Shown here: piece by piece, positions 3,390-17,594 of the stretch
Layout: each line of letters opens with the position of its first letter
Position numbering within the stretch: the first letter of the stretch is position 1
NCBI GenBank assembly: GCA_022750055.1
Contig: JAKIWL010000001.1
Coordinates: 310,001-374,000 of the forward strand
From: Thermoplasmata archaeon
GTDB taxonomy: Archaea > Thermoplasmatota > Thermoplasmata > Lutacidiplasmatales > UBA184
DNA: 64,000 nt
Direction: 5' to 3'
The notes under the pieces: generated by a model
The model's input: only the letters and a program-made list of their open reading frames with translations
Databases searched by the model: none
Told to the model about the DNA's origin: nothing
Translations under genes and position numbers: made by a program

Positions 3390-5015
3390 CTAGTGGTCGT
3401 GTCCACCGGCCCCGCCGGGTGGACCGGCCGAGGTCTTCTTGGAGGCGATGATATCGTCGATCCGAAGGACCATGTTCGCGACCTCGACGGCCGAGGTGAG
3501 GGCCTGGCGCTTGACGCGCAACGGCTCGACCACGTGCATCTTCCACATGTCCGCCGCCTTGCCGTCGCCGAGGTTGACTCCGACGTTTCGATTCGCCGAT
3601 GGGCCATCGTGCGCTCCCCGAAGCTCGATCAGGGTGTTGATCGCGTCGTAACCGCCGTTCTCCGCGAGGGCCCAGGGGACGGATTCGAGGGACTGGGCGA
3701 ACGCCTCGACCGCCAGCTGCTCCCGGCCACCGACGGACGGGGCGAACTTCCGTAGCTTGACCGACAGGTCGATCTCGGTCGCGCCACCACCGGGACAGAT
3801 GACCCCATCCTCGATGACGCTCGCGACGACCTTGAGGGCGTCGTGGATCGAGCGGTCCACTTCCTGGGTGACGTGCTCGGTGCCGCCGCGGATGAGGATC
3901 GAGACCGACCGGGGGTTGGCGCAACCCGTCACGTAGGTCATGTCCTCGTCGCCGACCTTCTTCTCCTCGACCAGTTGTGCCGCTCCAAGATCCGAGGAGG
4001 AGAGCTCCTTGAGCCCCGTGACGATCTTTCCGCCGGTCGCCCTCGCGAGCTTCTGCATGTCGGACTCCTTGACCTGCTTGAGCGCGAAGACCCCTTCCTT
4101 GGCCAGGTAGTGCAGGACGACGTCGTCGATCCCCTTCTGGGTGATCAGGACGTTCGCCCCCGAGGCCTTGACCTGCTCGGCCATCCGCCGGAAGGTCTTG
4201 TCCTCCTCGTCGAGGAAGCTCTGGATCTGGTTGACGCTCTTGATGTTGATCTTGCTCTCGATCTCCGTCTTCTTGATCTCGAGGGCCGAGTTGACGAGCG
4301 CGATCTTCGCACCCTTCACCATGCGGGGCATCCTCGGATGACCGCGCTCCTTGTCGAGAATGATGCCGTCGATGAGCTCGGTATCGCCGATCGTGCCCCC
4401 GTGGCGCTTCTCGACCTTGATCTGGTCGACGTCGGCCACGACTCGGTCCCCGCGCTTCTCGACGATCTTTCGGACCGCGTGGACGGCAATCTTGGCGAGC
4501 TCATCCCGGGAGCCGAAGACCCCCTTCGACCCCATCGCCGTTGTGGCGCAATCGATGAGCATCTTCTCATCGTCGATCTTGACGGTGGTCCCGATCTCCT
4601 TCTCGAGGAGTCGTTGGCCCTCTTGGAGGGCGATCTGATAGCCGCGCGTGATGACGGTAGGATGGATGTTCTGTTCCAGGAGCGCCTCGGCGCGCTTCAA
4701 TAGCTCGCCGGCCAGTACGACCGCGGTGGTCGTCCCGTCGCCGCACTGCTGATCCTGGGTCTTGGCCACCTCGACGATCATCTTGGCGGCCGGGTGTTCG
4801 ACGTCGACCTCCTTGAGGATCGTGACGCCGTCGTTCGTGATCGTGATGTCTCCCATCGAATCCACGAGCATCTTGTCCATGCCTCGGGGGCCGAGGGTCG
4901 AGCGGACCGCGTCCGCGATGGCTCTGGCCGCGGCGATGTTATTCTGTGTCGCGCTCTTTCCTCTCTCGCGCTCGGTGCCTTCCTTGAGGACGAGGATGGG
5001 GGTTCCCTGCAGCAT
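3390..5015 (-). CDS. thsA: thermosome subunit (group II chaperonin)
   Basis: ATP-driven protein-folding chaperonin that forms double-ring complexes in the cytoplasm. About 541 residues, normal for the family. Diagnostic features are the N-terminal ATPase segment ([19 protein letters not shown], then [11 protein letters not shown]), the GDGTTT nucleotide-binding motif, and a [10 protein letters not shown] motif in the C-terminal equatorial domain. It ends in a Gly/His-rich tail (GGAGGHDH), a common chaperonin ending. A TTG at 5027 could add four residues, but the ATG at 5015 sits about 36 bases from a clear TATA box (5046-5057), so it is the preferred start. Only one subunit gene is in this window; others may exist elsewhere. 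Confidence 0.95.
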
Positions 5016-5045
5016 GGCTTTCTCCAACTCGGGGAACCATGCGCT

Positions 5046-5057
5046 TGTATATGAAAG
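5046..5057 (-). promoter_or_regulatory. TATA box of the thermosome gene
   Basis: Read on the minus strand the sequence is ctttcatatac, an obvious TATA-like element in GC-rich surroundings. It lies about 36 bases upstream of the ATG at 5015, giving a predicted leader of roughly ten bases. Confidence 0.6.
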
Positions 5058-5061
5058 CAGT

Positions 5062-5089
5062 GGGTGGTCCGGGCTTTGGGATTTTTCTC
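5062..5089 (+). repeat. left copy of island-flanking direct repeat
   Basis: These 28 bases match 19568-19594 in the same orientation except for one G (ggg versus gg in the middle). The match starts at gggtggtcc and ends in a T-rich tract (ttgggatttttctc). Sequence on either side is unrelated. The two copies bracket the low-GC accessory region. At this copy the left arm of the hairpin seen at the other copy is absent. It may be an attachment-site-like repeat, an element end, or a shared regulatory sequence. Confidence 0.6.
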
Positions 5090-5132
5090 GCCACCGAGAC
5101 TCCCTTGGGATTGTTCTAGACCGATTGGGATT
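5076..5132. repeat. three TTGGGATT repeats upstream of the thermosome promoter
   Basis: The octamer TTGGGATT occurs at 5076-5083, 5105-5112 and 5125-5132, each followed by a T-rich stretch. They lie 20 to 80 bases upstream of the thermosome TATA box, where archaeal activator or repressor sites are often found. The first copy overlaps the island-flanking repeat. Whether a heat-shock regulator binds them is unknown. Confidence 0.45.
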
Positions 5133-5189
5133 TTTTGGTCTGAGGGTGTCGTTTTCCCGTCGCAGGGGGCTAAGCCATCTTGTCCGGCA

Positions 5190-5199
5190 TCAATAATAC
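5190..5199 (+). promoter_or_regulatory. TATA-like box for the HEPN-like gene at 5221
   Basis: The AT patch caataatacc lies about 26 bases before the ATG at 5221, the spacing expected for a leaderless archaeal transcript. Confidence 0.5.
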
Positions 5200-5220
5200 C
5201 GAACACCGACCTCACCAGGC

Positions 5221-5958
5221 ATGCCTACTGACGTCAACCTTCCCTACGCATTAGAAATCCGGCTCCAGGGAGCAGCCGCGAAGGTTGCCTTCGACCGGCT
5301 GGAAGCCGAGCTCGCGGCACGGAGTCGCCTCGGAGAGGAAGTGCGCCGGATTCGTGACCAAGGCGGTCCCCCACCACTTCAGGCCGAACAAGAAGAGTAT
5401 GCGAGCTTGCTCAGGCAGATGGCGAACAAGGTCCCAAGGATTCTCGAAGCCTTGCAGTCCTTCCTGGCGGCGGCGGGGATCATCTCCATGACTCTCTGGC
5501 CGGACACGCGATCTCGACCAGGACTTTCCTCGGAGGATCTAGCGGCCCGCAAGAGCCGTGGGGAGCAGCTGCGGCAGCTGCTAGAGCTATCGGATGAGTC
5601 TCCGATTCACCTCCTTCGGCGCAAGGCCACTGATCCCAGAGGCGGGCTCCTCCACGTTGATGAGATGTTGGATGAGGTCACGATGGGTTCCGCGCCGGAT
5701 ACGGTGGTGACGTTCCAGGTTGGGAGGCTGTCAGATCGATCGGGCTGGGCTCCCGAGTCTACCGTAAGGTGGCTCGACGAGCAGACGCTCATCGTACACG
5801 TTAACGAGCGGGAAACGGGGCTGCGCCCGATCCTCGATGAGATTACCCGGATTGCTCGCCACATCCAGGTCACCGGAAAGGAAGCCCTCCTCTGGGGCAA
5901 TAGGCCCCGCGAGGACGGCGGCTTGCCCTTCGGGGTCACTCTCGACCTAAAGAAGTAA
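5221..5958 (+). CDS. HEPN-like helical protein, candidate RNase or sensor of a defence module
   Basis: A 245-residue, mostly helical, soluble protein with no signal peptide. Residues about 70-150 (FLAAAGIISMTLWP, then SRGEQLRQLLEL, then RGGLLHVDEMLDEV) resemble an uncharacterised bacterial/archaeal family whose core reads roughly RN-hydrophobics-H-x-DE. Here R140-x4-H145 fits the Rx4-6H active-site motif of HEPN ribonucleases, although the usual Asn after Arg is Gly. The start ATG at 5221 follows a TATA box by about 26 bases. It is the first gene of a same-strand run with a second HEPN-like protein, a zinc protein and a helicase-nuclease. The HEPN assignment is inference from motif and fold character; an inactive HEPN is also possible. 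Confidence 0.6.
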   Translation: MPTDVNLPYALEIRLQGAAAKVAFDRLEAELAARSRLGEEVRRIRDQGGPPPLQAEQEEYASLLRQMANKVPRILEALQSFLAAAGIISMTLWPDTRSRPGLSSEDLAARKSRGEQLRQLLELSDESPIHLLRRKATDPRGGLLHVDEMLDEVTMGSAPDTVVTFQVGRLSDRSGWAPESTVRWLDEQTLIVHVNERETGLRPILDEITRIARHIQVTGKEALLWGNRPREDGGLPFGVTLDLKK

Positions 5959-5998
5959 TGCCGAACGCTAGATTGTCCGAGTAGTTCCGGTAGTCCTT

Positions 5999-6844
5999 AT
6001 GGCATCCGACGCGAAGTCAGGCACCTCGGTAAAGGATGGTTCTCCACCTGAGCCGAGGGTCGCGGATTACCGTAGGAACGCGGCGAGGTCTTGGGAGATC
6101 TACCGCAACGAGAAGGGAATCGCTAACCTTCGAATTACGGCGGCGGACCACCTCGAACTTTATCGTTACCTTCTATTCAGGCTGGCTCATGCACTGCTAG
6201 TTTTCGATGAGCCAAGCACGTTTGATCAGATGCCTCTGGAGGCCTTAGTCGACCGCTTGGTGGCGAGGTTGCCTCTTCTGGATGAACGATGGTCGAAGTG
6301 CCTGCGAGGTCTGCGCGAATTGCGGAAAGAACTCTACCACCGCGAGCTCAGCGCCCCGAATCCGAAGTACGTTGAACATCTATCCTCTGATGCGGACGCC
6401 TTCCTAGCGTTCGTAGAATCCGAAGTTAGTGGCGTTGAGGCGATCCTACGTGCGAGGCAGTCCACGTTTGAGCAATGTCGCGAACTCTACAAGGAGGTCG
6501 ATCGATACGCGAATCTTGCTCAGGACGAGTTTCCAGATGAGAAAGTCAAGCCATTCGTCCAGAACTTGAAGTGGTTTCCATTGCTCGTGACTGAGAGTTC
6601 ACCTCCAGAGGCCCTCGAAGCGCTGAAGGGCCTCTTGCAGAATGAGGTCAACCGAATTAGCGCCCTCTACGTGTCTCGGTATGAGGTGTGTCCCAAGTGC
6701 GGGGGCCCAATCACCGAGAGAAACTACACGACATCATACGGCGGTACAGCGGACGACCCGGAACCGACACACTCGTACCAGCACTGGGAGCTAGGCTGCG
6801 CGAACTGTGGGCACAAAATCGAGAGCGACTCAGTGGAGATCTAG
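5999..6844 (+). CDS. HEPN-like protein with C-terminal zinc ribbon
   Basis: 281 residues. Residues about 45-165 are strongly helical and contain RELRKELYHRE, where R109-x4-H114 fits the Rx4-6H catalytic motif of HEPN RNases. The C-terminus has two CxxC knuckles (CPKCGG near 228 and CANCGH near 270) separated by about 40 residues, a classical zinc ribbon that could bind nucleic acid or a partner. There is no membrane segment. It starts 40 bases after the previous gene and is followed on the same strand by another zinc protein and a helicase-nuclease. A role as an RNase effector in an antiviral module is inferred. Codon use is less GC-biased than in the core genes, consistent with transfer. Confidence 0.6.
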   Translation: MASDAKSGTSVKDGSPPEPRVADYRRNAARSWEIYRNEKGIANLRITAADHLELYRYLLFRLAHALLVFDEPSTFDQMPLEALVDRLVARLPLLDERWSKCLRGLRELRKELYHRELSAPNPKYVEHLSSDADAFLAFVESEVSGVEAILRARQSTFEQCRELYKEVDRYANLAQDEFPDEKVKPFVQNLKWFPLLVTESSPPEALEALKGLLQNEVNRISALYVSRYEVCPKCGGPITERNYTTSYGGTADDPEPTHSYQHWELGCANCGHKIESDSVEI

Positions 6845-6897
6845 CGGGCCCTTGGCAATACAGGAGCCATTCTGGTTCGCGTAGCCATGCCCGAGTC

Positions 6898-6907
6898 CAT
6901 TTATCGC
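6898..6907 (+). promoter_or_regulatory. TATA-like box for the small zinc protein
   Basis: The patch catttatcgc lies about 24 bases before the GTG at 6926, suggesting an internal promoter for the small zinc protein and perhaps the helicase downstream. Confidence 0.4.
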
Positions 6908-6925
6908 TGTCCACATTGACCAGCT

Positions 6926-7246
6926 GTGGCTAGAAAAAAGGTCCCGGTCCCCGGCCGAATTCGGTCCATCCACCCATCCAGGTTCTGGCCTCGGATTAGC
7001 GGCTTTACCTGCTCCGAATGCGGACATTCCGTCGGCCGCCACAAGGCGGTCTGGCACGACGAGCGACGTTTCTCGGTGGAGCGACGACCCGGCCCGGGTG
7101 ATACATGCTGGGTAAAGTGTAGGTCGTGCCCGAAAGTCGGTGGTCGACTTGCCGTCTGCTTTGACCACGGCTGCGATGGAAGAAAGCCGGTCAACCATCG
7201 GCTTGAATCCGAGGTCCGTAGTCGAATCGTCCAAACGAGGCTTTGA
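6926..7246 (+). CDS. small Cys/His-rich, probably zinc-binding protein
   Basis: 106 residues starting at a GTG just downstream of a TATA-like patch. Metal ligands are clustered: CSECGH (C29, C32, H34) with further His at 39 and 44, then CWVKCRSC (C61, C65, C68) and CFDHGC (C78, H81, C83). This suits two zinc sites. The rest is basic, compatible with binding nucleic acid. I do not recognise the family. It lies between the HEPN-zinc-ribbon gene and the helicase-nuclease on the same strand, so it may be an adaptor or regulator of that module. Overlapping minus-strand frames lack such structured motifs and were discounted. Confidence 0.5.
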   Translation: MARKKVPVPGRIRSIHPSRFWPRISGFTCSECGHSVGRHKAVWHDERRFSVERRPGPGDTCWVKCRSCPKVGGRLAVCFDHGCDGRKPVNHRLESEVRSRIVQTRL

Positions 7247-7386
7247 AACTGAATTACCGTAAACGACCGGCCCGCGTCATCATCGTCCTCATCTCCATCT
7301 ATTCAGTCCGCCCCTCTTTCGACCGATTCCATTCGTTCCATCGCGGGACCGAAAAGCTCCTCAAACCGGGTGGCTCTCGGAGATTT

Positions 7387-10002
7387 GTGGCGAACACACC
7401 AAACCCATTCCGCCGGGTCCGGGTAAAGGCCACCCCCCCAGCCGATCCCGAGTCGCTTTTCAAGGAGCTACGGACCCGGTCGCCTGAGATTCGCGACTTG
7501 TTCTCACACCAAGCTGACATCCTACGCTCGTACGCGCAGAACCATATCGAGACCTCCGATGTTAGCCTTGAACTTCCAACCGGCTCCGGTAAGACCCTCG
7601 TGGGTCTCTTGATTGCCGAGTTCAGAAGGCGGATACGGCGGGAAAGAGCCCTCTACCTTTGCCCGACCAGGCAACTCGCGTTCCAAGTGGGAACCCAGGC
7701 GCATACATACGGAATCGAGGCAAAGGTGTTCGTCGGTCCGAAGAAGGACTTCGTGGTTGAGGACGTCACGAGTTACAGGGCAGGAAGGGTAATCGCAGTC
7801 TCCACATACGGTGGGTTCTTCAACGTTAGTCCAGGACTCTATGACCCTCAGACCATCATCCTAGATGACGCCCATGATGCCGAGTCGCATATCGCCAAGA
7901 TGTGGTCCGTTCTTGTCGATAGGAGCGAACGCAAGGAGTTGTACATGCAGCTCGTTTCTTTGTTCGAGCCGCGCCTACCGAAGCCGCTCGTGGCTTCACT
8001 GTACCGGGACTCACGCCCTGCCCGAGTGCCCCAACCTTGGATGATACCTTTCGGAGCCTTGAACCCGAATCTGGCTTCTCTTCGGGCGATTCTCGATGCT
8101 GCCGCACCCGGGCCCGACGACCCGGAGCTCTACTTTCCGTGGACCACCGTCCGTGACGGCCTTGCATCCTGTTGCGTCTACATCTCTTGGGATGGGGTCC
8201 TCATTCGCCCGTACATTCCACCCACACTGACCCACCCCCCTTTCGCTCGCGCTCTTCAGAGAGTATACATGTCTGCTACTCTCGGTTCCGGAGGTGAGCT
8301 TGAGAGATCCTCCGGCGTCCCTCAAATAAAGAGGATCCCAACGCCGAAGACTTACGCCTCCCACGGGGTTGGCCGTCGCCTCTTCATTTTTCCAGATTTC
8401 TTTCGAACCAGCGCGGACTATCAAACTTGGCTCGAATCCTGCCTAGTCCGGGAGCGGTCCCCCAGGACCCTTGTTCTGACACCTACTCTTCGTGGATCTA
8501 ACATCTTCAAGGAGCGCGTCGAAACTGCATTTCCGGGACGGCTCACGATCCTCAGCGCAGCCCAAGTCGAGAGCTCCCTCGACCCGTTCACCCAGGACGA
8601 GCACGCCGTTCTAGTCTTGAGCGGCAGGTACGATGGAATCGACTTGCCTCACGAAACCTGCCGCCAGATCATTCTCCTTGGCCTGCCCTCAGGAACGAAC
8701 CTACAGGAATCGTTCCTCGAACGAACCCTCGGCTTGGACGTACTCCTGAGGGAGAGAACCAAGACAAGAATCGCTCAAGGAACCGGTAGATGCACGCGAA
8801 GTGACACGGATTATGCTGTCGTAGTCATGGTTGGACGGCGCCTGCTCGACTTTTGCGTTAGGATCGAGAATCTCTTGTCTTTTCACCCAGAACTTCGAGC
8901 CGAACTACAATTTGCCCTTGACCAACGCCCGCGTTCGTTCGACGATCTTGACTCTATGGTGAATGCTTTCCTGACGCAAGACGAGAAGTGGGCCCAGGCG
9001 GAACAGGACATTCAGTCACTACGCTCCGAGGAACCTCCCCCGGACTCTCCGACCACCTCACAGCTCGCGGACAGCGTGAAAGATGAGGTCGATTACTCAT
9101 ACGCGATGTGGGCCGGAAATCATGGAAAGGGGGTACTCCACGCGAGGGCCGTCGTGGACCGGCTATCCGGGGTTCCTCTCGCGTCCTACCGCGCTTTCTG
9201 GTCGTATAATGTCGCTGGAGCAGCCACGTTGGCTGCCCAGGGAGTTGGCGAATTCGCCGACGTAAGTCACGAGTTCTTGAGACGGGCTTCGGAGGCTAGT
9301 CGTTTCGTTACCTGGTTCGCCTACGCGGCTGAAGCCGCCGGGGAATGGGACATTCAATCTCCGGTTTCCGATCAATTGTTAGGCCTTTCGGTCGAGGGGG
9401 TGACCAGTTTCATCCACGAAATCGGAACAGTCGGACCGACGTTTGTGAAGTACATGGACGAAACCGAGAGACTTCTCCACAGCCATGCCGCACCGGAATT
9501 CGATGTCGGCCTCGCTAGACTGGGCGGCCTCCTCGGTTTCGAAGGCTCGAAGCCCGAAGGGACTGGGAGTCCGGATGCCGTCTGGCAACTGGGTACCAAG
9601 TTAGCAGTCGTTTTCGAGGGGAAGGCTGGAGAAGCCCCGCACGAATCGGTTTCCATCAGGGATTGTACCCAAACAGCTGGACACCTCGATTGGGCGAAGT
9701 CGCAGCCCCGAATAAAGGAGATAGACAGCACCATAGCGATTCTCGTTACCCCTCGATCAAGAATCGCCCGTCAAGCGGTGACGCATGCTGATAGGATTCG
9801 CTTCTGGAGTCCAACTGACGCGCTGGCCCTTTTTACCGTCGCTCGGAGAACGCTCGAGTCTATTCGTTCGGCCATGGTGGAAAGTCGTGATGTCGATCAG
9901 AGGTCGATAGTTGCGAAGTTCCTGACCGAGTCCAAGATAGATCCCGAATCAATCCGCAGGGCCTTCCTTTCCCGAGACACGAGCTCTTTGGCAAGAGAGT
10001 GA
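7387..10002 (+). CDS. SF2-type helicase fused to a PD-(D/E)XK-like nuclease domain
   Basis: About 871 residues from the GTG at 7387. The N-terminal half is a superfamily 2 helicase: Walker A LPTGSGKT, a second-lobe-facing CPTRQLAFQV (motif Ia region), a Walker B variant LDDAHDAE, and an arginine-finger motif VI QGTGRCTRSDTDY. The DDAH form recalls helicases found in defence loci. Near the C-terminus SPDAVWQL is followed by VVFEGKAG, a D...E-x-K arrangement typical of PD-(D/E)XK nucleases. Together this suggests a translocating DNA or RNA nuclease. A TTG at 7243 overlapping the previous stop would add 48 residues that look non-native. It closes a four-gene same-strand run; immunity function is inferred. 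Confidence 0.8.
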   Translation: MANTPNPFRRVRVKATPPADPESLFKELRTRSPEIRDLFSHQADILRSYAQNHIETSDVSLELPTGSGKTLVGLLIAEFRRRIRRERALYLCPTRQLAFQVGTQAHTYGIEAKVFVGPKKDFVVEDVTSYRAGRVIAVSTYGGFFNVSPGLYDPQTIILDDAHDAESHIAKMWSVLVDRSERKELYMQLVSLFEPRLPKPLVASLYRDSRPARVPQPWMIPFGALNPNLASLRAILDAAAPGPDDPELYFPWTTVRDGLASCCVYISWDGVLIRPYIPPTLTHPPFARALQRVYMSATLGSGGELERSSGVPQIKRIPTPKTYASHGVGRRLFIFPDFFRTSADYQTWLESCLVRERSPRTLVLTPTLRGSNIFKERVETAFPGRLTILSAAQVESSLDPFTQDEHAVLVLSGRYDGIDLPHETCRQIILLGLPSGTNLQESFLERTLGLDVLLRERTKTRIAQGTGRCTRSDTDYAVVVMVGRRLLDFCVRIENLLSFHPELRAELQFALDQRPRSFDDLDSMVNAFLTQDEKWAQAEQDIQSLRSEEPPPDSPTTSQLADSVKDEVDYSYAMWAGNHGKGVLHARAVVDRLSGVPLASYRAFWSYNVAGAATLAAQGVGEFADVSHEFLRRASEASRFVTWFAYAAEAAGEWDIQSPVSDQLLGLSVEGVTSFIHEIGTVGPTFVKYMDETERLLHSHAAPEFDVGLARLGGLLGFEGSKPEGTGSPDAVWQLGTKLAVVFEGKAGEAPHESVSIRDCTQTAGHLDWAKSQPRIKEIDSTIAILVTPRSRIARQAVTHADRIRFWSPTDALALFTVARRTLESIRSAMVESRDVDQRSIVAKFLTESKIDPESIRRAFLSRDTSSLARE

Positions 10003-10168
10003 GGCGACGCAGCCGACTGCGTCCGTTCAGTCCCGAAGGTAGTTGGCATAGGTGGCAAGGATTCGAAATATCAACGTGACCCCTATCGTGGGAGTATGAA
10101 CCTCAGGATGTCCGAGGTCTCGCGAGCGAGCCCGCTCGACCGGTGGCTTCACCTGAGGAAGTTGGCCG

Positions 10169-10633
10169 CTAAGACGGGTTGGCGTGCGTTGAAGAGTAGG
10201 ACCAAGCCGCATCCCGGTGCGCTGTGGCTTCCTTCCGGCGCCATGGGGCACTGGATGGACTATCTGGGAACTCTCGCAGAGTGAAGAACCCGTCGCCCGG
10301 CAGCCCGTGCTTTGCGGAGACAATTACCGCCGAGAGGTAGAAGGCCAGTCCGAGTACGTGGTAGCCGTACTCACTGATGATTCCCAATGCGGTGGGAAGG
10401 CCATGCCCGATGCCACGAAGATTCAGGCCCCGACCACAGTTGTCATTGAACGGCTTGTACTCGATCACTCGCTTTTTGGCGGCGGCCTCCCAGAGGTGGC
10501 CCGCAAGTTCCGAGAGGGACCCGTGACCGGCTCCCCTCATCCAAGCCGAGTGCTTTTCGAACCACTCCTGATCTTCAGCCTGGTTCTCGGGCCAAGCGTC
10601 TGGGTTCGCCCTAGAGCGCGTGTAAGCGGTCAC
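10169..10633 (-). CDS. hypothetical protein, unknown family
   Basis: 154 residues from a GTG at 10633. The first half is well formed (AEDQEWFEKHSAWMRGAGH, then GHLWEAAAKKRVIEYKPFND) and the middle has a hydrophobic helix (YHVLGLAFYLSAVIVSA) that might be buried or membrane-associated. The frame has more natural amino-acid composition than the overlapping plus-strand frame at 10217-10645, so this strand was chosen. No motif is recognised. It stands alone between the helicase-nuclease (convergent) and the gene at 10760 on the same strand. Confidence 0.45.
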   Translation of the reverse strand: MTAYTRSRANPDAWPENQAEDQEWFEKHSAWMRGAGHGSLSELAGHLWEAAAKKRVIEYKPFNDNCGRGLNLRGIGHGLPTALGIISEYGYHVLGLAFYLSAVIVSAKHGLPGDGFFTLREFPDSPSSAPWRRKEATAHRDAAWSYSSTHANPS

Positions 10634-10759
10634 GATTCACTGTAGTGCCCCGTTCGTAACGACCTTTTCCCTGGAAACGTGCATTCGCCCGGACGGCTCG
10701 TTCTCCGAGCGGGTGCCATTATGGGAAGGGTTAATACTTGCGACCTCAGATTCTGCGGA

Positions 10760-11713
10760 CTAAGTCGCATCGCGCACTGGCTCCAAGGTTTCAACATGGA
10801 GTCTCTTCTTCTCAACGGTGCCTGTGACCATCACGAGCCGCTGAGAGGCGATGTGAACTAGGGCCTCTTCCTGCTGGGCCGCATCGATAGTGCATACTGT
10901 CCGTTTGCCCTCTTCGCCACTCACCTCAAATGTGTGCTTGTCAAGATCGATTTCTCGGAGGTGGCCGACGACCCGCTTCGCCTCCGGCTTCAAGGAACGC
11001 TCGGCAATTGCGTTCGCCTTTCGAAGGGTTTCAGTCGTCGCCCGGACCGGCGGTAGGCGTAGGGGCGAGACGCGACGCAGTTGAACCCACGATACGGGGC
11101 CGGCCGGGGTTGGCGAAAGCTTTCTGACCCCTGACAGGACAACCTTTCTGAGGTTTTCAGCCTCGAGCGACGCAGGTGGTTGGTTCGCCTCGCTATCCAC
11201 CCACCGTAGGCCGTCCTCCAAGGCCTGTAAGGATCGTTCGGCGAGGTCACGCATTCCCTCGCCGGCCTCTGCCGGAAGGGCCGGGTATTCAAGCTCGAGG
11301 TTGAAGCTGCCAGGGGACACCCCCACCACCCGCAGGTCGACGGCCCTTGCAATGTCCGCCTTCGGCCTTCCAATTTCTCGAACTGTACCCTCAAGTAGCG
11401 TCTCGGCGATGCTCGTAATGGCCCCTCTTAGAGAATTCACCGCTTCGCCCAAGGCGCTCAGAGTCGTGACGCCACTTGCTCCGTCCTTGGTTTCGAAACC
11501 TAGCTCGAGGGCTCCCGCCGGAAGACCTGAAACCCCGAGGAATTCATCCACTTCATGCTGGAGCTCACGTAACTGATGCTGGTAAAGACCGGCTAGGTTC
11601 TCCCGAGCATGGGGGCTCCCGGAGAACCTATGCCTTGCGGCGAGAATCGTCTGTTCTAGTTCCGCAATTCGAGCCTGCGTGAGCACTAGTTCCTCCCCCG
11701 AGCTAATGCTCAT
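10760..11713 (-). CDS. coiled-coil protein paired with an NTase-fold gene
   Basis: About 317 residues from the ATG at 11713. Residues 1-60 look like a coiled coil (LTQARIAELEQTILAARHRF, then QHQLRELQHEVDEF). The middle is mixed alpha/beta, and the last 70 residues are beta-rich (GHLREIDLDKHTFEVSGEEG, then RLVMVTGTVEKKRLHVETLEP), like a small barrel. The start overlaps the stop of the upstream NTase gene by four bases, so the two are translationally coupled. I do not recognise the family by name. A toxin-antitoxin or defence pair with the NTase is a reasonable inference from the coupling and location, but unproven. An in-frame start five codons upstream at 11728 is possible. Confidence 0.55.
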   Translation of the reverse strand: MSISSGEELVLTQARIAELEQTILAARHRFSGSPHARENLAGLYQHQLRELQHEVDEFLGVSGLPAGALELGFETKDGASGVTTLSALGEAVNSLRGAITSIAETLLEGTVREIGRPKADIARAVDLRVVGVSPGSFNLELEYPALPAEAGEGMRDLAERSLQALEDGLRWVDSEANQPPASLEAENLRKVVLSGVRKLSPTPAGPVSWVQLRRVSPLRLPPVRATTETLRKANAIAERSLKPEAKRVVGHLREIDLDKHTFEVSGEEGKRTVCTIDAAQQEEALVHIASQRLVMVTGTVEKKRLHVETLEPVRDAT

Positions 11714-12156
11714 AAGCCACCCCCCCATCCAGAGGTGACTTTGAGAATGCCTTTAGCAGTTCCGGCTCTGGTAAACCCGAACTGCCTAATCCAGTAGCCG
11801 CTGACGTCGATCTCGTCCGAAACGTACACGTCACAGCCATGAATCGCCCTGATAGATTCGTGCCGGCGCCTGACCCATCCGAGGAGAGTCCCTCCCGGGG
11901 ATTGGTCTACCATCGTGTCGACAACGAAGACGACGTCGATATCTCGCGGCTCGGGATGATCTTCAACGAAGCTCCCATCGATAAGGATGTACTGAACCGG
12001 TCCCAGGTCAGGAAGCATGCGGAGAGCTTCGAGGAAGCGCGCCCACAATCCCTTGCGACGGTCCGTGAATGCGAGTCTCCCTTCGACCTCTGACAATCGG
12101 CACTCATGGAGTCCCTCAGGTAACAGCCCATTGCCCAGAAAGCTAGGAATCGGCAA
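11710..12156 (-). CDS. minimal nucleotidyltransferase-fold protein (DUF6932-like)
   Basis: 148 residues. The segment ILIDGSFVEDHPEPRDIDVV contains the G-S and D-x-D signature of the polymerase-beta/MNT nucleotidyltransferase fold, and the N-terminal phrase GLLPEGLHECRLSEVEGRL matches what I know of the DUF6932 family. Such proteins may transfer nucleotides to RNA or protein partners; no substrate is known here. Its stop overlaps the start of the coiled-coil partner gene, implying co-expression. The AbrB-like gene at 12291-12482 lies upstream on the same strand and could regulate the pair. Family assignment is fairly confident, function is not. Confidence 0.7.
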   Translation of the reverse strand: MPIPSFLGNGLLPEGLHECRLSEVEGRLAFTDRRKGLWARFLEALRMLPDLGPVQYILIDGSFVEDHPEPRDIDVVFVVDTMVDQSPGGTLLGWVRRRHESIRAIHGCDVYVSDEIDVSGYWIRQFGFTRAGTAKGILKVTSGWGGGL

Positions 12157-12290
12157 GGTCTGTTCGTAGCGCAGGACCAGTATCGGGACGGAAATACCTT
12201 CGCGGACTGATGACCATGCTCCGAACCCAATCGTCCAATTCGCCTATCCCAGCCACCAACCTTCTTCGATGATTCGCGCCGGTGTAACCG

Positions 12291-12482
12291 CTATTCCGGA
12301 AACTGGAATCCCTCGCTCGCGGGCACGAGCACTGCTCGGTGCTTTTCTGAGTCAATGAAGAACACCACCTGCTCCCCCTCCTTGAGCCCGAGTCCTTCTC
12401 GGACCGCGTTCGGCAGATGCATCAGGCCCTTCTGGGAAACCGCCGCCACCGCCGGCACCAACTTTGCTTCAATTTGGGCCAT
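12291..12482 (-). CDS. AbrB/SpoVT-type DNA-binding regulator
   Basis: 63 residues with the typical swapped-hairpin AbrB pattern: an N-terminal strand (AKLVPAVAAVSQKGLMHLPNAVREGLGL) followed by KEGEQVVFFIDSEKHRAVLVP. Such proteins bind DNA as dimers and often act as antitoxins or local repressors. It faces the GIY-YIG cassette across a shared AT-rich intergenic region and lies upstream of the NTase pair, so it may control either. The ATG at 12482 is the only sensible start. Confidence 0.75.
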   Translation of the reverse strand: MAQIEAKLVPAVAAVSQKGLMHLPNAVREGLGLKEGEQVVFFIDSEKHRAVLVPASEGFQFPE

Positions 12483-12537
12483 ATCCCCATGTCCCCGCGG
12501 TTGCTAATCAATCCTCCGTATGTACAGAATGATGGAC

Positions 12538-12551
12538 GCATAATAAATACT
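12538..12551. promoter_or_regulatory. AT-rich divergent promoter between AbrB and the GIY-YIG cassette
   Basis: The sequence gcataataaatact holds a TATA-like box usable in both directions. Its centre is about 30 bases before the ATG at 12576 on the plus strand. Directly downstream is a tandem repeat (aatactg at 12547-12553 and again at 12556-12562) that could be an operator. Confidence 0.5.
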
Positions 12552-12575
12552 GGAAATACTGTCTTCCCTGGCGCG

Positions 12576-12824
12576 ATGTCGTTCCGACGCGAGTTGGCCA
12601 AAGCCCTCCTCTCCGAGGCAATTTCCGAGCTCGCCGCGTCCGAGGGGGACGAGCTTCGTCGATCGGCTCGTCGTTCGCCTCCCGGTTTGGGTCGCGACGC
12701 CCGTCGCACTCTTGCCAACGCCTCCGACGAGCTCGCACACAACCCCGAGCCGCTCGTCAAGGCGATCGAGGCCCTATGGGATCAGCCTCGGCGCCGGAAT
12801 GAGAGCCGCGGTGCTAACTGGTAG
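12576..12824 (+). CDS. small helical protein, first gene of GIY-YIG cassette
   Basis: 82 residues from an ATG placed about 30 bases after the TATA-like box. The sequence is helical and charged (RRELAKALLSEAISELAASEGDELRRSARR, summarised here in parts: a Leu/Ala-rich first helix, an Arg-rich linker, and a second helix ending in KAIEALWDQPRRR). No family is recognised. It ends five bases before the GIY-YIG gene, which suggests one transcript. It could be an immunity or DNA-binding partner, but there is no direct evidence. Longer in-frame extension upstream to 12417 would run through the promoter and the AbrB gene and was rejected. Confidence 0.5.
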   Translation: MSFRRELAKALLSEAISELAASEGDELRRSARRSPPGLGRDARRTLANASDELAHNPEPLVKAIEALWDQPRRRNESRGANW

Positions 12825-12829
12825 CCATC

Positions 12830-13093
12830 ATGGGATATTCGAGCCGTCGCGAGAAGGGAGACTACCGCTGGGTTCCGGACACCAGCGGCATCTACCGCCT
12901 GTACCACGGAGACACCATCGTATACGTCGGCCAGACGAACAACCTCTCGGCTCGCCTCCTGGAGCACGAGTCGAGCAAGTCCTACTGGGGATCGTTCGAC
13001 TACAAGTCCACCCGAGGGACTCCGACCGCGGAGCGGAAGCGTATGGAACGCCGGGCAATTGGCCGGAACTGGCCAACCCGGAACAAGACCTAG
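12830..13093 (+). CDS. compact GIY-YIG nuclease-domain protein
   Basis: 87 residues that are almost entirely a GIY-YIG domain: GIYRLY near residue 20, IVYVGQTNNLSARLLEHE with the conserved Tyr-Val-Gly and Arg, a Glu in AERKRMERRAI near 70, and a terminal Asn (NWPTRNKT). These match the catalytic Tyr, Arg, Glu and Asn of the UvrC/homing-endonuclease superfamily. No extra DNA-binding domain is present, so specificity may come from a partner. It is the middle gene of a tight three-gene run opposite an AbrB regulator. It could be a defence nuclease or a selfish element; both are inference. Confidence 0.8.
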   Translation: MGYSSRREKGDYRWVPDTSGIYRLYHGDTIVYVGQTNNLSARLLEHESSKSYWGSFDYKSTRGTPTAERKRMERRAIGRNWPTRNKT

Positions 13094-13107
13094 TCGAGTA
13101 GCCGAAC

Positions 13108-13404
13108 GTGATGGACTTCGAGGCCCTGCGAGATGTAGTGTACGCCCAGCCCCCCGGCGTGTCCATTGACGTCCCGAAGTCTGAGATGGCAGAACTCCCA
13201 CCGGAGTTCGAACCCACTGAACTCGGGACGCCGATTTGGATTGCGCATCCGGGAGCCACAAGCCAGTCGAGGGCACCCGGCGCCCTCCCCGCTTACGAGG
13301 TCGGCGACGCTTGGAAGGTGCATCGAGACCGGTTCGATCCAAAGAACGACCGGGGTGGGTTCCCTCCACACCTTAAGATCGCCATCGATTCTCGACGCTT
13401 CTAG
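13108..13404 (+). CDS. hypothetical protein, third gene of GIY-YIG cassette
   Basis: About 98 residues from the GTG at 13108, or 97 from the ATG at 13111. The composition is acidic and Pro-rich with short hydrophobic stretches (MDFEALRDVVYAQPPGVSI, then LGTPIWIAHPGA). It has no recognised motif. The 14-base gap from the GIY-YIG gene suggests co-transcription. Its stop directly abuts the stop of the convergent AlbA_2 gene. The frame has no competing sensible frame on the other strand. Confidence 0.45.
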   Translation: MMDFEALRDVVYAQPPGVSIDVPKSEMAELPPEFEPTELGTPIWIAHPGATSQSRAPGALPAYEVGDAWKVHRDRFDPKNDRGGFPPHLKIAIDSRRF

Positions 13405-14793
13405 CTACGCTTCGCTTAGTCCGCCAGGCTGTAGAGATTGAGCCGCAATCATCATGTCGAATCGTTGGGCATAATACCGGTACTGATAGGTCGACTTCCC
13501 CCTGGATTCTGCATCCAGCAGCTTTTCGAACATGGCTTGCGCTGCAAGGTGGTCCGAGATAAATTCTGAGTAGCGGTGGGTCTCTCCCTCAAAATTGAAG
13601 GACTTGATCGACGATTTGGAATATAGCACGAAACTCGACCGATCCGTGTCTGTGTACGCAAGAACCTTCTCTGCAATCCTAGCCGCCCGTCCACGTAGAG
13701 CACCCAGGTTCGGCCTGAGTAAGGAGTTCCGCTCGTTCCAAAAAAAGATACCAATCACGAGCGGTATTAGTTCTCTCACTCGATACTTCGGCGAATGAAT
13801 CTCACTCCTGCAGGCGGCTATCAATCGCTCTCGTGACATTACTGCCGCCCAAGACATCGGGTATCCGGATCCCTCCAACGCGGATACAAATGAGAGCTCG
13901 GCAGTGTCATCATCGAAGTTGATGCTCTTCCGACGTAGATACCACTTAGTCAATGTTTCACGAGACACGCGGTGGCGTGCGTCGGCCTGCCTCCAGAGAC
14001 GAACGTGATGAGTTATCTCGGCCCCAAGTGACCCGAATGGAACGCTGGTCGTGAGAATCTCAGTGATTGGGAGGCTGGCCTCGCCGCTCTCAGCATGTTT
14101 AAGCGACACCGGGACACCCCTGCCGCTTCCAGAGAGGACGTAACCCCTACCGTCAGTGGCCGGGTCCGTAGCAATGATTTCCGAATCGGGCGGGAGGTGG
14201 GCGACGCGTTCTATCCTTGATAGGAAGAGCCGGGTTCGCTGCTCTATCAAACGATTGACCAGTAGGTCGAGGTCCTGCTGAGATGCTGGGGAGTTGCCGC
14301 CGGGTATGCGTGTGTAGACAACCCCCTTATGAAATGCCTTCTTCGGGTGTCCTTCTTCATCGTTGAAGTCACCGTCAGAATCGAATACGACTAGGTGCCC
14401 TGGTGCTCTCACGATCAAGAAGGCAAACATGAGAGCCCCCTGGTACCCCTCCATGAAGTTCGTCGCTACCCTTGCTTCAGTCTTTCTGGAAAGTTTGTTC
14501 GAAACCTCGGCTGGATCCAGCTTCGATTGTAGGGAGTAAGGTAAGCCGATGCGACTGCCATCGTTTCCCACTCCAAAGCAGATGATCCCTCCCCCGTAGT
14601 TCGCCATTGAGGCGATATCCTTGAGCAATTCGGCCCATCCTCGTGTTGTTCCGTCGAAGTGCAACTTGAGCTCGAATTCTTGGAGTTCGCTCCGCGAATT
14701 GGGCGCCACAATCGAGTCGAGCAGGCCCAGGAGTTCCTCAATCGTTGGGGCTGTCTTCTGATCACAGATTTGCGAGACAGTTCGGTTCGCCAT
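13405..14793 (-). CDS. AlbA_2 / Schlafen-type ATP-binding domain protein
   Basis: 462 residues. Residues about 35-85 (QEFELKLHFDGTTRGWAELL, then KDIASMANYGGGIICFGVGNDGS) match the AlbA_2 domain (formerly divergent AAA-4), including the ExK near the start and the glycine-rich segment after the ASMAN motif. AlbA_2/Schlafen domains bind nucleotides or cleave RNA and recur in phage-defence genes. The remaining 350 residues are not recognised and are probably the system-specific part. It lies inside the accessory island and is divergent from the restriction endonuclease unit. Function in immunity is inferred from family and location. The ATG at 14793 gives a natural N-terminus. Confidence 0.75.
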   Translation of the reverse strand: MANRTVSQICDQKTAPTIEELLGLLDSIVAPNSRSELQEFELKLHFDGTTRGWAELLKDIASMANYGGGIICFGVGNDGSRIGLPYSLQSKLDPAEVSNKLSRKTEARVATNFMEGYQGALMFAFLIVRAPGHLVVFDSDGDFNDEEGHPKKAFHKGVVYTRIPGGNSPASQQDLDLLVNRLIEQRTRLFLSRIERVAHLPPDSEIIATDPATDGRGYVLSGSGRGVPVSLKHAESGEASLPITEILTTSVPFGSLGAEITHHVRLWRQADARHRVSRETLTKWYLRRKSINFDDDTAELSFVSALEGSGYPMSWAAVMSRERLIAACRSEIHSPKYRVRELIPLVIGIFFWNERNSLLRPNLGALRGRAARIAEKVLAYTDTDRSSFVLYSKSSIKSFNFEGETHRYSEFISDHLAAQAMFEKLLDAESRGKSTYQYRYYAQRFDMMIAAQSLQPGGLSEA

Positions 14794-14846
14794 GATTCCG
14801 GAAACGTCTATCGGGGCGGTCCGCTCCAGCGACCCTCCTCGACCTT

Positions 14847-15053
14847 ATGGAGCCCACGGCTAGTTTCTCAGACTACCTGATTGGTCTTCCTCAGCAGCCC
14901 TCCAAGCTCTTTACCGACCTGCTGGTGACGTCAAGCATGCCCGTTGAGGAGAAGTCGGCACCGGTGGGCGAGCGAACGATTGAGGTTGGACCGCGGATCA
15001 GGTCGGAAGACCTGGCCCAAAAGCTGGAAGCCATCCAATCCATCCCGGCCTGA
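14847..15053 (+). CDS. small protein upstream of restriction endonuclease
   Basis: 68 residues (MEPTASFSDYLIGLPQQP and onward) ending 25 bases before the endonuclease start on the same strand. It has an acidic, partly helical composition (IRSEDLAQKLEAIQ) and no helix-turn-helix, so it does not look like a standard controller protein. It may be a real small gene co-transcribed with the endonuclease, or a chance frame. No family is recognised. Confidence 0.35.
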   Translation: MEPTASFSDYLIGLPQQPSKLFTDLLVTSSMPVEEKSAPVGERTIEVGPRIRSEDLAQKLEAIQSIPA

Positions 15054-15078
15054 GCCTTAGGCCTGAAGAACAGACTCC

Positions 15079-15822
15079 ATGCCTCCGCGACCGGGAGAAG
15101 GCACGCCCCCGGAGATTGTTCAGCTACGGAACTCGGTTCCTACGACGCTACAAGTCCTAGCATCGGTCGTCAAAAATCTCGATTTCGAGGGGAGGCCTGT
15201 TGAATATTTCGATGCGAACTTCACTGCCTCCTTGGTTTCAATGATGGGTGAGGGATACCGACTCCTCCATGCCGAACAAAAGAGAATCCTCCCGCAGATC
15301 ATTTCGCTCTCCGACCAGTACATCGAATCTGACCCGGTCAGAGCTGATGCTCTGATGTGGTTCGGTATCAAGTCGCTGCAGAACCAGAGTCGGAAACGCG
15401 CTGGCGTCCACATGGAGAGGTGCGTATCGTGGCTTCTGACAAAGTGTGATATTCCAAATGCCAACGGCAAGCCGAGAACAGGGCGGAGTGACCTTGTATG
15501 TCCCGATTTGGAAACCTTTGATAACCATCAGGAACGGGCCATAGTCCTCGAGTTCAAGAGGACGATACGTGAACGCTGGAAGGAGGTCAGGGACGAGATT
15601 TCGAGATCGGGGAGGAATGTCTGGTTGCTCACCCTCGATGATAGTATCTCAAACAACAGCGTCCAATTGATGGCCGCTGCGAATATCACACTGTACGTTC
15701 GAACGGACGTCCAAGCAACCCTCGAACGGAACCCGCGGCACCTGCGGTCTTTGGACTCGTTGGTCGCAGATCTCCGCCACGTCGTCGGCAGAGCGAGCCA
15801 ACGCAAGCTTGTGGGCGTCTAG
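15079..15822 (+). CDS. type II restriction endonuclease, PD-(D/E)XK fold
   Basis: 247 residues. GRSDLVCPD near 140 supplies the catalytic Asp, and about 25 residues on IVLEFKRTIRERWKEV gives the E-x-K half of the PD-(D/E)XK site followed by the R-x-R-W-x-x-V helix. This ELKRT-x-RERW-like signature is known from EcoRII-type and related type II endonucleases. It should cut double-stranded DNA at a short site protected by the neighbouring methyltransferase. The gene is convergent with the methyltransferase, and the two stops share a four-base overlap around CTAG. Recognition sequence cannot be read from the protein. The ATG at 15079 precedes a flexible Pro-rich start. Confidence 0.8.
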   Translation: MPPRPGEGTPPEIVQLRNSVPTTLQVLASVVKNLDFEGRPVEYFDANFTASLVSMMGEGYRLLHAEQKRILPQIISLSDQYIESDPVRADALMWFGIKSLQNQSRKRAGVHMERCVSWLLTKCDIPNANGKPRTGRSDLVCPDLETFDNHQERAIVLEFKRTIRERWKEVRDEISRSGRNVWLLTLDDSISNNSVQLMAAANITLYVRTDVQATLERNPRHLRSLDSLVADLRHVVGRASQRKLVGV

Positions 15823-17186
15823 CCTTTTGAAAGGAGGACGACTTCCTCCTTGCCTATCGCTGGAGAATCTACGTCTCGCCCGCTTCGTCCAACCGGATTT
15901 ACTCGGTACGCACCTACCTTGAAAAAAATCCTACGCGAGAAAGTTTCGACATGGTGGAATCCAACGTTTTCGGCATCTTCTCTCAAGATCTGAGAATTGG
16001 GCACGGTTACCTCTCTCACGGTTCGATCGCCAATCACAATGCAGAGATGTCCGTTTGGGGTAACTGCATCGTAGAAGCGTTGGAGGCACCACTGCATGTC
16101 TCCAAAGAAACCCTCGACGACCTTTGCGCGATTGGGGTCCCTTGCCTGTATCGATTGGAGCACTGTGGCCAAAGTTTCCGACTTGCTCCTCGACCTGGGC
16201 CGTTCTGGGTTGCCGCCTACGCAGGTCTTGTCGATCGCCCGCCAATCCGAGTTGAGACTCGGCATCCACTCCATCATCAGGGAGGAGAACTGTCCGTAGG
16301 CCACAGTCGTCGTTGAGTCGCCGTAGGGAGGACTGGTGAGGACCAGGTCGACCTGCTGGTCAGGTGTGAATGTAGAACAATCTGCGCAAGAAATCTGCGG
16401 AGCTGGGGCCGATCGATAACCCGAGGAGAGCTCGTTGGACAAGCCCACCACCATTGTCCAGTTTCTTAGGAAATCCGAGATTACGTCAGGCTTGTGTCCC
16501 TTAGCCCGATCATCAGAAATTCGGTACCTCTTGAATTGGTTCTGACGTTGAAATGAAGTCCTCCTGACCGTTCGAGCGAACGCTACGTCGAGCAAGTCCT
16601 TCGAGGAACGAGAAGACCCTAAGGATTCAACCTCGTCCAGCTGCCGGCGGAGGAAGCCCAGGTCGCGGATTACTGCAGGCCCCCACCATCGTTCTACATC
16701 CAAGGTAAAATCATCCAAGTTGGGCCGGTAGGCCCGGCGTGCCGCATCCGCCGAAGAACCCCGCACCCTGGCGACAATTAGCTCGGTCCAGCGTCGAAGC
16801 TCTGCTGACTTGGTTCTTTGGGTCTTTGCTCGTGCGAGCAGGCATGCGAACGGATTGAGATCCGTCCCTTGGGAAGGGAATCCGTGAGTCATTGCTTCGA
16901 GCAGCACAGTCCCTGAGCCGCAGAACGGGTCCCAAACAGAGCTGCCTGGACTTGGGACGCTTTCCAGAACCTTTCGCGCGATTCTAGGCACCATCCTTGC
17001 TGGATATGGGTGAATTCCATGCGTCAATTCGGTCGTACTGTCATCCTTGAACGACCAATCCGCATGGACCATGCCTGCAACGGGATCTCTGACCATCTCT
17101 GCCTGGGTAATTGGGAACATGGACGGTCTCTTGAATTTCTCAGGAGCAGGACTCGAGAGGTACGACCGTGCTTGGGAGGGTGTCAT
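15819..17186 (-). CDS. DNA methyltransferase of the SPPY (N4-cytosine/N6-adenine) class
   Basis: 455 residues. The S-adenosylmethionine motif I is DPFCGSGTVLLEA near 85 and the catalytic motif IV is LTSPPYGDS near 280. Motif IV precedes or follows motif I in different subclasses; here motif I comes first among the two, as in gamma/alpha-type order with a permuted remainder. SPPY favours an exocyclic amino methyltransferase, often N4-cytosine. It protects host DNA from the convergent endonuclease, completing a type II restriction-modification system. HGIHPYPARMVP just before motif I is also typical of this group. A promoter is not obvious in the 160 bases upstream. Confidence 0.85.
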   Translation of the reverse strand: MTPSQARSYLSSPAPEKFKRPSMFPITQAEMVRDPVAGMVHADWSFKDDSTTELTHGIHPYPARMVPRIARKVLESVPSPGSSVWDPFCGSGTVLLEAMTHGFPSQGTDLNPFACLLARAKTQRTKSAELRRWTELIVARVRGSSADAARRAYRPNLDDFTLDVERWWGPAVIRDLGFLRRQLDEVESLGSSRSSKDLLDVAFARTVRRTSFQRQNQFKRYRISDDRAKGHKPDVISDFLRNWTMVVGLSNELSSGYRSAPAPQISCADCSTFTPDQQVDLVLTSPPYGDSTTTVAYGQFSSLMMEWMPSLNSDWRAIDKTCVGGNPERPRSRSKSETLATVLQSIQARDPNRAKVVEGFFGDMQWCLQRFYDAVTPNGHLCIVIGDRTVREVTVPNSQILREDAENVGFHHVETFSRRIFFKVGAYRVNPVGRSGRDVDSPAIGKEEVVLLSKG

Positions 17187-17348
17187 GGAACTGACCTCTT
17201 CCGAATCCTGGGTGAGTTGACCGCTTGCGGTGAGTCATCGCTCGGCGGACTAGCGTAGCAATACTTCAGGCGGGAGTAGGGGTCGGAAACGGTGCTACAC
17301 GCCTCCCGTTTCGATGGAATCGGGCTTTTCATTGGCGGTCGAAAGCGG

Positions 17349-17594
17349 TCATGCCTGCCTCCGATCCGCCTGCCTTCGGTCTCTGTACGCTGAAGGGTTG
17401 TCCCCCTCCATCAGCCTGCGAATCAGCTCATCCACGGCGTGAGACTCGCTCCGATAGCCGAGGCGGTCGAAATTCTGCTTAAGCCATTCTCTCCGCCTTG
17501 GATCGATGGAGTAGGAAGTCGATTTTCGATGCTCTTCGAGCGGCTTCCTGGGTGGCACTGCGTATCGAATCCGCACAACCCGTCTCCGGCTCAT
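17349..17594 (-). CDS. small RHH-like regulator or antitoxin
   Basis: About 81 residues from the ATG at 17594. The N-terminus is basic (MSRRRVVRIRYAVPPRK) and the middle holds a strand-helix-helix-like segment (TSYSIDPRRREWLKQNFDRL, then ESHAVDELIRRLMEG), reminiscent of ribbon-helix-helix repressors. The start lies immediately beside several palindromes (17599-17645), as expected for an autoregulated repressor. An in-frame ATG at 17600 and a longer frame to 17681 exist, but these would run through the putative operators. No toxin partner is adjacent. Family call is tentative. Confidence 0.5.
   Translation of the reverse strand: MSRRRVVRIRYAVPPRKPLEEHRKSTSYSIDPRRREWLKQNFDRLGYRSESHAVDELIRRLMEGDNPSAYRDRRQADRRQA

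Follow-up and report, generated by a model that had tools for sequence, protein, structure and literature searches.

The gene at 7387-10002 of the window (the whole 64,000-nucleotide stretch of DNA analysed here) encodes an archaeal protein that, judged by its sequence, is related to Hna, a helicase-nuclease already described as acting against phages on its own. Most probably it is a solo Hna-type antiviral effector, located on an archaeal chromosome in a variable island of defence type alongside unrelated genes. This reading draws on its family membership, its intact catalytic residues, the lack of genes 1-3 in the flanks compared at 15 other Hna loci and the variable site in which it lies. 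The three small genes ahead of it, which the initial annotation had combined with it into a candidate undescribed defence module, look like unrelated island neighbours and not parts of a new defence system. The features are as follows.

3390-5027, - strand: thermosome gene, left border of the island
5028-20514: variable island of 15,487 bp, about 0.35 kb in relative G248 (tblastn of window genes to relatives)
5221-5958, + strand: gene 1, 245 aa, small HEPN-like family with the motif R[N/D]xxxHxDE, here RGGLLHVDE (alignment of 11 members)
5999-6844, + strand: gene 2, 281 aa, an orphan with a predicted helical N-terminal part carrying RKELYH and a C-terminal zinc ribbon (CPKC...CANC)
6926-7246, + strand: gene 3, 106 aa, Cys-rich small protein with a relative in the same genus
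7387-10002, + strand: Hna-family SF2 helicase with PD-(D/E)XK nuclease, 871 aa (homology, motifs and choice of start)
20515-21435, - strand: ksgA, right border of the island

The thermosome gene and ksgA adjoin in G248, and the reading of the site as variable is based on the five of eight relatives that showed both flanks. Codon use in the four genes is of the island type, with a GC3 of 0.63-0.71 compared to 0.88 in the thermosome gene, and the island also carries R-M and further defence-type genes (Pfam, PADLOC). A defence character had been proposed for the four genes, and it agrees with both the type of the helicase-nuclease and these surroundings.

Start codon and family of the helicase-nuclease

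The four same-strand open reading frames exist as first described, at 5221-5958, 5999-6844, 6926-7246 and 7243-10002, though we have corrected the start of the last. Its mechanical reading frame (7243-10002, + strand) opens at TTG 7243 and encodes 919 aa. Among the 40 plasmid matches listed from tblastn, alignments begin at residues 44-79 of this frame, save for one partial plasmid gene whose alignment begins beyond residue 79, and the two that begin at residues 44 and 47 lie just ahead of residue 49. This residue corresponds to GTG 7387, the sole further in-frame ATG, GTG or TTG within 7243-7460, which has GGAG 4 nt upstream and gives a protein of 871 aa, where 12 relatives span 858-875 aa. 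The gene therefore probably starts at GTG 7387. With this start the 4-nt overlap between gene 3 and the helicase frame is probably an artefact, the gap there becomes 140 nt, and the overlap was dropped as a sign of an operon.

The SF2 helicase motifs pointed out by the initial annotation (PTGSGKT, DDAH and QGTGRCTR) are present, as is the PD-(D/E)XK site fused to them (PDAVW...FEGK), and the fusion is further supported by the match to Hna. Using phmmer against the solved Hna structure (10uj/9ykj/9yhn, of which 10UJ and 9YKJ are given as Hna deposits in PMC13381803), the protein matched 10uj_A at E 4.1e-39, and a second stretch, insignificant by itself (i-Evalue 8), aligned FEGK with Hna FECK, the lysine being residue 729. 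A family profile (A1) built from 13 members and 869 positions long matched 10uj_A at E 3.4e-85 over positions 9-854, corresponding to Hna residues 12-834, and the next best structure chain reached only 5.8e-14. Hna was the only structure for which the match spanned helicase and nuclease together, with two SF2 helicase domains and the C-terminal PD-(D/E)XK in a single chain of about 850-870 aa in both proteins.

The tested catalytic residues, nuclease lysine included, are the same as in Hna. Walker A residues G68, K69 and T70, D160-D161-x-H163 and Q464-G467-R468 are kept in all 15 aligned Hna-family members, as are the other motif residues tested save for the nuclease lysine. The nuclease residues here are D730, E744 and K746, with K746 aligning to Hna K729, a position where the change K729A abolishes nuclease activity (PMC13381803). 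That lysine is kept in 12/15 members, including the window protein, and replaced by H or Y in the other three, which means that not every member of this family sample has an active nuclease.

Both PADLOC PDC-S28 models match the helicase-nuclease over most of its length (E 2.2e-104 and 6.5e-104), and the same two models match Hna at its published locus on S. meliloti pSymA (E 0 and 7.6e-120), which we recognised through two Hna segments printed in the literature, as well as a protein of genome G320. Since the same models match all three proteins, PDC-S28, itself only a candidate label, and Hna are one family. The view that the set was unnamed is thus overturned for its largest member, which matches a named single-gene system. 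Other systems that share the SF2 helicase core (type IV CRISPR DinG, Hachiman HamB and Cas3), the latter two also resembling it in helicase plus nuclease logic, were matched by helicase parts only and far more weakly than PDC-S28 (DinG E 1.2e-13, Cas3b E 2.8e-4, HamB E 0.003). Phrog_16128, a phage family of 827 positions and unknown function, also matches the helicase part (residues 72-558, E 1.5e-27).

Hna-family genes are patchy, occurring in 3 of 103 family genomes including the genome studied. At E 1e-3 a PADLOC model matched in 183/284 phylum genomes and 8/14 control genomes, and the bulk of these were taken as cross-matches of the helicase core; only G000, G239 and G154 (E ≤4e-39) were kept, the next match being at 6e-12. 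Locus L083 matched the profile at E 8e-10 and was rejected as Hna, its protein being a 532-aa DEAH helicase. A single-protein pattern scan of genome contigs found no relative of the helicase, a type of scan that reaches close relatives only and missed many. On plasmids, tblastn matched 229 records, 34 of which cover at least 80% of the query.

This distribution also bears on whether the protein could be a housekeeping DNA-repair helicase of the XPD, DinG or ExoDinG type with no role in defence. Its helicase motifs are common to the XPD and DinG families, and the type IV CRISPR DinG model does match it, but the match from helicase to nuclease is to Hna only, its relatives are few and often on plasmids, and the gene sits among R-M and other defence-type genes; we consider a repair role highly improbable.

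By homology the 871-aa protein joins an SF2 helicase to a PD-(D/E)XK nuclease at its C-terminus. S. meliloti Hna is described as a 3'-5' ssDNA exonuclease with ATP auto-inhibition, an SSB trigger and an abortive infection outcome (PMC13381803), and bacterial Hna is reported to work as a single gene (PMC13381803; PMC12445080). By analogy, the archaeal protein would be held at rest as ATP-bound auto-inhibited dimers until a viral replication signal, which in S. meliloti is a phage-encoded SSB, releases the auto-inhibition, and the released enzyme would then degrade single-stranded DNA 3'-5' and bring the infection to an abortive end. We infer its biochemical activity, its trigger and its action against archaeal viruses from this comparison. 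The window protein is only about 21% identical to S. meliloti Hna, comes from an archaeal host and falls outside a well-supported pair of the S. meliloti and G320 proteins in the tree, so its trigger and regulation could differ.

The three small genes

Genes 1 and 2 had both been read as HEPN-like from an Rx4H motif (R140-H145 and R109-H114, respectively). Both motifs are present; however, an Rx4-6H motif occurred at least once in 70% of 1000 shuffles of gene 1 and in 82% of 1000 shuffles of gene 2, so a HEPN call from the motif alone is at chance level. An N, D or H after the R is typical, not absolute, of the HEPN Rx4-6H motif (PMC3710099), and neither gene 1 nor gene 2 has one. For gene 1 the call was partly reinstated by a family alignment of 11 members, in which R140 is kept in 11/11 and H145 in 10/11, and the residue after R is N or D in 10/11, with G141 in the window copy. 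This conservation makes a HEPN-like site credible despite the G found here. Gene 1 thus resembles the HEPN superfamily RNases in its conserved R-x4-H and the N/D after R of its relatives, and differs from them in that G, in a 5-residue insert ahead of the motif and in the lack of a match to HEPN models of Pfam.

Pfam as a whole and PADLOC gave no match to gene 1 either, and a single-protein pattern scan of viral contigs, which reaches close relatives only, found no relative. Weak matches that we set aside link gene 1 with a NADH-dehydrogenase model of NCBIfam (E 0.017), one family member with JetA (E 0.019) and the gene 1 family profile (A2) with PDB chains at E 1.8 and 3.8. The single-sequence AF2 model of gene 1 was poor (pLDDT 41). 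Members of the family were found in 4 of 103 family genomes, the genome studied included, and in 2 more among 276 phylum genomes, with weak relatives on bacterial plasmids. The family occurs alone and, in one case, fused to a GNAT acetyltransferase. Gene 1 is best read as a separate HEPN-like gene and possible RNase, probably independent of Hna.

Gene 2 and gene 3 are best described from their sequences as separate zinc-binding candidates. The zinc ribbon assigned to gene 2 stands as far as its two C-terminal CxxC pairs, while the zinc-ribbon Pfam matches were weak and all below cut-offs; its HEPN motif stays at chance level. Searched against 292 genomes of the phylum and 103 of the family, gene 2 matched only itself, and there was no match among plasmids, phages, viral contigs or genome contigs, where the contig scans reach close relatives only. 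A weak match to a CARF7 model (E 0.054) was set aside, and its single-sequence AF2 model was poor as well (pLDDT 53 overall and below 50 over residues 1-136). Gene 3 is a Cys-rich small protein as first described, with 7 Cys, and all seven are kept in a 52% identical relative from the same genus (G216, locus L051), a locus with no match to the helicase gene.

Co-occurrence of the four genes

The four genes lie on one strand and are separated by 40, 81 and 140 nt (using the GTG 7387 start), so co-transcription is possible. A sigma-70-type scan gave 2 promoter-like sites where 1.4 were expected, with a consensus of a type that is uninformative for an archaeon, and there were 9 terminator-like sites where 4.9 were expected.

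Conserved co-occurrence of the set was not borne out in the flanks compared. Six-frame translations around 15 other Hna loci, covering 0.1-8.4 kb of flank to one side and 1.2-13.2 kb to the other, showed no relative of genes 1-3 and no flank gene in common with the window. Flank matches between different Hna loci came to 16 scattered frame pairs, none with the window, and the named or recognisable shared genes were mostly recombinases or transposases. The Hna profile found no Hna at any of 10 gene 1 family loci, four of which have a flank of less than 1.5 kb on one side, and the one clear relative of gene 3 is likewise without Hna. With no co-occurrence at these loci, a four-gene module was rejected.

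It is conceivable that the window holds a local, recently assembled variant, read as one transcript, in which sensing or degrading viral DNA falls to the Hna-like protein, and gene 1, with the zinc protein of gene 2, serves as an extra RNA-cleaving abortive effector. The shared strand and short gaps, the island-type codon use of all four genes and the conserved motif of gene 1 are consistent with this, but the lack of co-occurrence in the flanks compared at the 15 other Hna loci and 10 gene 1 loci, the want of a detected relative of gene 2, the probable artefact behind the overlap and the single-gene action of bacterial Hna make it quite unlikely. We regard as very unlikely the further reading that, in this lineage, an Hna-type helicase-nuclease, a HEPN-like RNase and zinc proteins share one transcript and make up an abortive system with two arms, DNA and RNA, seen in one genome so far. 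Genes 1 and 2 could instead be a small HEPN toxin-antitoxin or defence pair of their own, independent of Hna, given their 40-nt gap, common strand and the conserved gene 1 motif; this is unlikely, as no gene 2 relative was found at the 10 gene 1 family loci and gene 2 is an orphan in the family and phylum genomes, plasmids, phages and viral contigs searched.

With the helicase-nuclease, genes of the Hna family are placed in archaea, and a single archaeal genus has two that differ considerably, the S. meliloti-like one of G320 and the divergent one here. The PADLOC PDC-S28 models are shown to describe the Hna family. Gene 1 draws attention to a small family that carries a HEPN-like motif and is found alone or, once, as a fusion. 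An archaeal Hna also offers a way to test whether the SSB trigger of Hna extends to the SSB/RPA proteins of archaeal viruses.

The helicase gene and the Hna family

The initial annotation had proposed an undescribed four-gene HEPN/helicase-nuclease defence module, and its four reading frames are present as given among the open reading frames of the window (archaeal contig segment G000:C1:310001-374000). The contig also carries what we take, by eye, to be thermosome, Pus10 and similar genes.

5221-5958 (+): gene 1, 245 aa
5999-6844 (+): gene 2, 281 aa
6926-7246 (+): gene 3, 106 aa
7243-10002 (+): helicase gene, 919-aa frame

As listed from TTG 7243, the helicase frame overlaps gene 3 by 4 nt. 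Apart from CTG 7249, GTG 7387 is the sole alternative in frame as far as 7460, with GGAG upstream and 4 nt between. This start gives a protein of 871 aa (12 relatives are 858–875 aa) and drops most of the N-terminal stretch unmatched by any family model, the PADLOC family-model match beginning at residue 62–63 of the 919-aa frame; 2 of the 40 listed plasmid tblastn matches begin earlier, at residues 44 and 47. Since the GGAG, the length of relatives and model coverage favour GTG 7387, most likely a 140-nt gap, and no overlap, lies upstream of the helicase gene.

Judged by its sequence, the protein belongs to the family of Hna, the single-gene anti-phage helicase-nuclease of S. meliloti pSymA. 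A phmmer search against solved structures found one strong relative, chain 10uj_A (also 9ykj and 9yhn; E 4.1e-39), and the 10UJ and 9YKJ deposits are Hna according to excerpts of PMC13381803. The significant stretch is the helicase part, while a second stretch, by itself non-significant, aligned PDAVW...FEGK with PDNLW...FECK, reaching lysine 729 of 10uj_A; the same excerpts state that K729A abolishes the Hna nuclease. With the A1 profile, built from an alignment of 13 helicase-nuclease members, Hna scored E 3.4e-85 (5.8e-14 for the next best structure) along profile positions 9-854 of 869, bearing out the idea that a helicase and a PD-(D/E)XK-like nuclease site sit in one protein. All 15 aligned members share the tested helicase residues as well as the D and E of the nuclease; the nuclease lysine position is K in 12/15 and H or Y in 3/15.

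Two models of the PADLOC candidate system PDC-S28 also match the window protein (E 2.2e-104 and 6.5e-104), as they do the S. meliloti pSymA locus (E 0 and 7.6e-120), where both looked-up Hna segments are present. The helicase-nuclease matches a named system, Hna (PADLOC candidate PDC-S28), and an undescribed four-gene module is not supported. With tblastn, 229 plasmid records had a match, in 34 of them with query coverage of 80% or more, and the best was from Paenibacillus larvae (37.5% identity). Identity is 30–36% to 11 bacterial plasmid relatives, 23% to the archaeal relative in genome G239 and ~21% to S. meliloti Hna, whereas an 853-aa protein from the same archaeal genus (G320) is much closer to the latter, at 38%. 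At locus L096 (8396-10957), from the same genus, a resolvase-type recombinase gene lies close to the S. meliloti-like Hna of 853 aa (E 6e-264 to PDC-S28), and relatives of that recombinase frame are found near Hna in loci L037 and L044.

Genes 1–3 and the flanks of other Hna loci

For the twelve plasmid Hna loci, flanks of up to 6 kb were taken; the pSymA record is unannotated. Fourteen Hna loci, two of them archaeal and twelve from plasmids, were translated in six frames, and no match to the gene 1 profile or to genes 2 and 3 appeared at E 0.1; L096, the 15th, gave the same result. Flanks, some ended by contig or record, spanned 0.1–8.4 kb left and 1.2–13.2 kb right, and in G154 the Hna gene runs off the contig end, with the upstream side covered. 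The expected conserved co-occurrence of the four genes did not hold up: genes 1–3 are in 0/15 other Hna loci within the flanks covered. When every flank frame of the window and the 15 loci was compared, 16 pairs matched at E 1e-5; the window figures in none of them, and several are recombinase or transposase genes. The P. larvae plasmid and pKAZ2 (L035 and L039) have related ATPase and helicase gene pairs near Hna (E 2e-29 and 5e-11), possibly a second defence system travelling with it.

Searched as a single sequence, gene 1 had no match but itself among 284 phylum genomes and none in plasmids, phages or viral contigs; 103 family genomes held 4 other relatives. The A2 profile of these five sequences found 2 further relatives among 276 phylum genomes, and one member used as query found 7 plasmid records (E 3e-4 to 8e-2). 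We examined 4 of these records and 6 archaeal loci, and A2 recovers all 10 at E 4e-10 or better in this small database, 4/10 having been in the profile. In an 11-member alignment R140 is invariant, H145 is kept in 10 members and replaced by Q in one, and D and E follow the R...H motif in all 11. As this motif agrees with the HEPN signature given in PMC3710099, an RNase-type HEPN site is likely in the family. The residue after R140 is N or D in every member except the window copy (G), whose HEPN-like site may be weakened. A HEPN-like site in gene 1 is credible from the conserved R140 and H145, and a HEPN fold is putative; searches of Pfam, PADLOC and PDB gave no noteworthy match. Hna is absent from 10/10 gene 1-family loci, 4 of them with <1.5 kb on one side. 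In one relative (L091:6802-7905) a GNAT acetyltransferase (Pfam E 2e-9) forms the N-terminal part of a fusion, and a GNAT gene adjoins the Rhodococcus relative (L087), so an acetyltransferase is possibly paired with the HEPN-like protein.

For gene 2, no relative appeared among 292 genomes of the phylum and 103 of the family, or in plasmids, phages, viral contigs and genome contigs, at the sensitivities used. Its Rx4H, read earlier as a HEPN motif, occurs at chance frequency. The C-terminal CPKC...CANC, with weak zinc-ribbon Pfam matches (E 1e-3, below cut-offs), makes a zinc ribbon there credible. A single clear relative of gene 3, at 52% identity and with all 7 Cys conserved, is present in G216, and G152 has a weak match (E 2.4e-4; not recovered by tblastn at 1e-4); the flanks of both lack a helicase-gene match.

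The thermosome–ksgA interval

Thermosome and ksgA bound the same spot in relatives, both being seen in 5/8, and the remaining 3/8 segments stop short of ksgA. The interval is ~0.35 kb in G248, ~9 kb in G313 and 15,487 bp in the window (5028-20514); with loci L069, L071, L072, L074 and L075, it shows that insertions at this site vary within the archaeal genus. GC3 of likely island genes in the window is 0.60–0.82 versus 0.88 for the thermosome gene. Other island features are:

10760-12156 (-): DUF6932 gene, candidate PDC-M63A (PADLOC E 3e-19), and an unassigned 322-aa gene, overlapping by 19 nt
13405-14793 (-): SLFN/AlbA_2-domain (AlbA/Schlafen-type) protein (Pfam E 3e-6)
15079-17186 (convergent, 4-nt overlap): EcoRII-C-type endonuclease and N4/N6 DNA methyltransferase (Pfam and PADLOC matches)
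18192-19538: transposase-like gene encoding a CxC...CxH zinc motif at the N-terminus

The endonuclease and methyltransferase are likely a type II restriction-modification pair, and we take GSF...DID in the DUF6932 protein as nucleotidyltransferase-like. The transposase-like gene, its CxC...CxH motif presumably SWIM-like, is 49.5% identical to L068:11861-13627 beside the thermosome gene of G312, and may be a mobile element using the same site. In G313 the interval holds GmrSD_N/NsnA-type, RiboL-PSP HEPN and TIR-effector-like genes. At a site this variable, the mere fact that genes are neighbours says little in favour of a module.

Single-protein Hna-type defence is the best reading of the helicase gene. 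Family membership, the residues and solo occurrence come from this analysis; for its activity, its trigger and its target, S. meliloti Hna serves as the model from which they are inferred. On that model the protein would be auto-inhibited by ATP at rest, a viral replication protein would release it, and 3′ single strands would then be degraded and infection aborted. Excerpts of PMC12445080 speak of Hna homologues across the bacterial domain, and the whole word Hna was not found in the main text of an archaeal defence survey (PMC12988326). The window helicase-nuclease is an archaeal member of an already known family.
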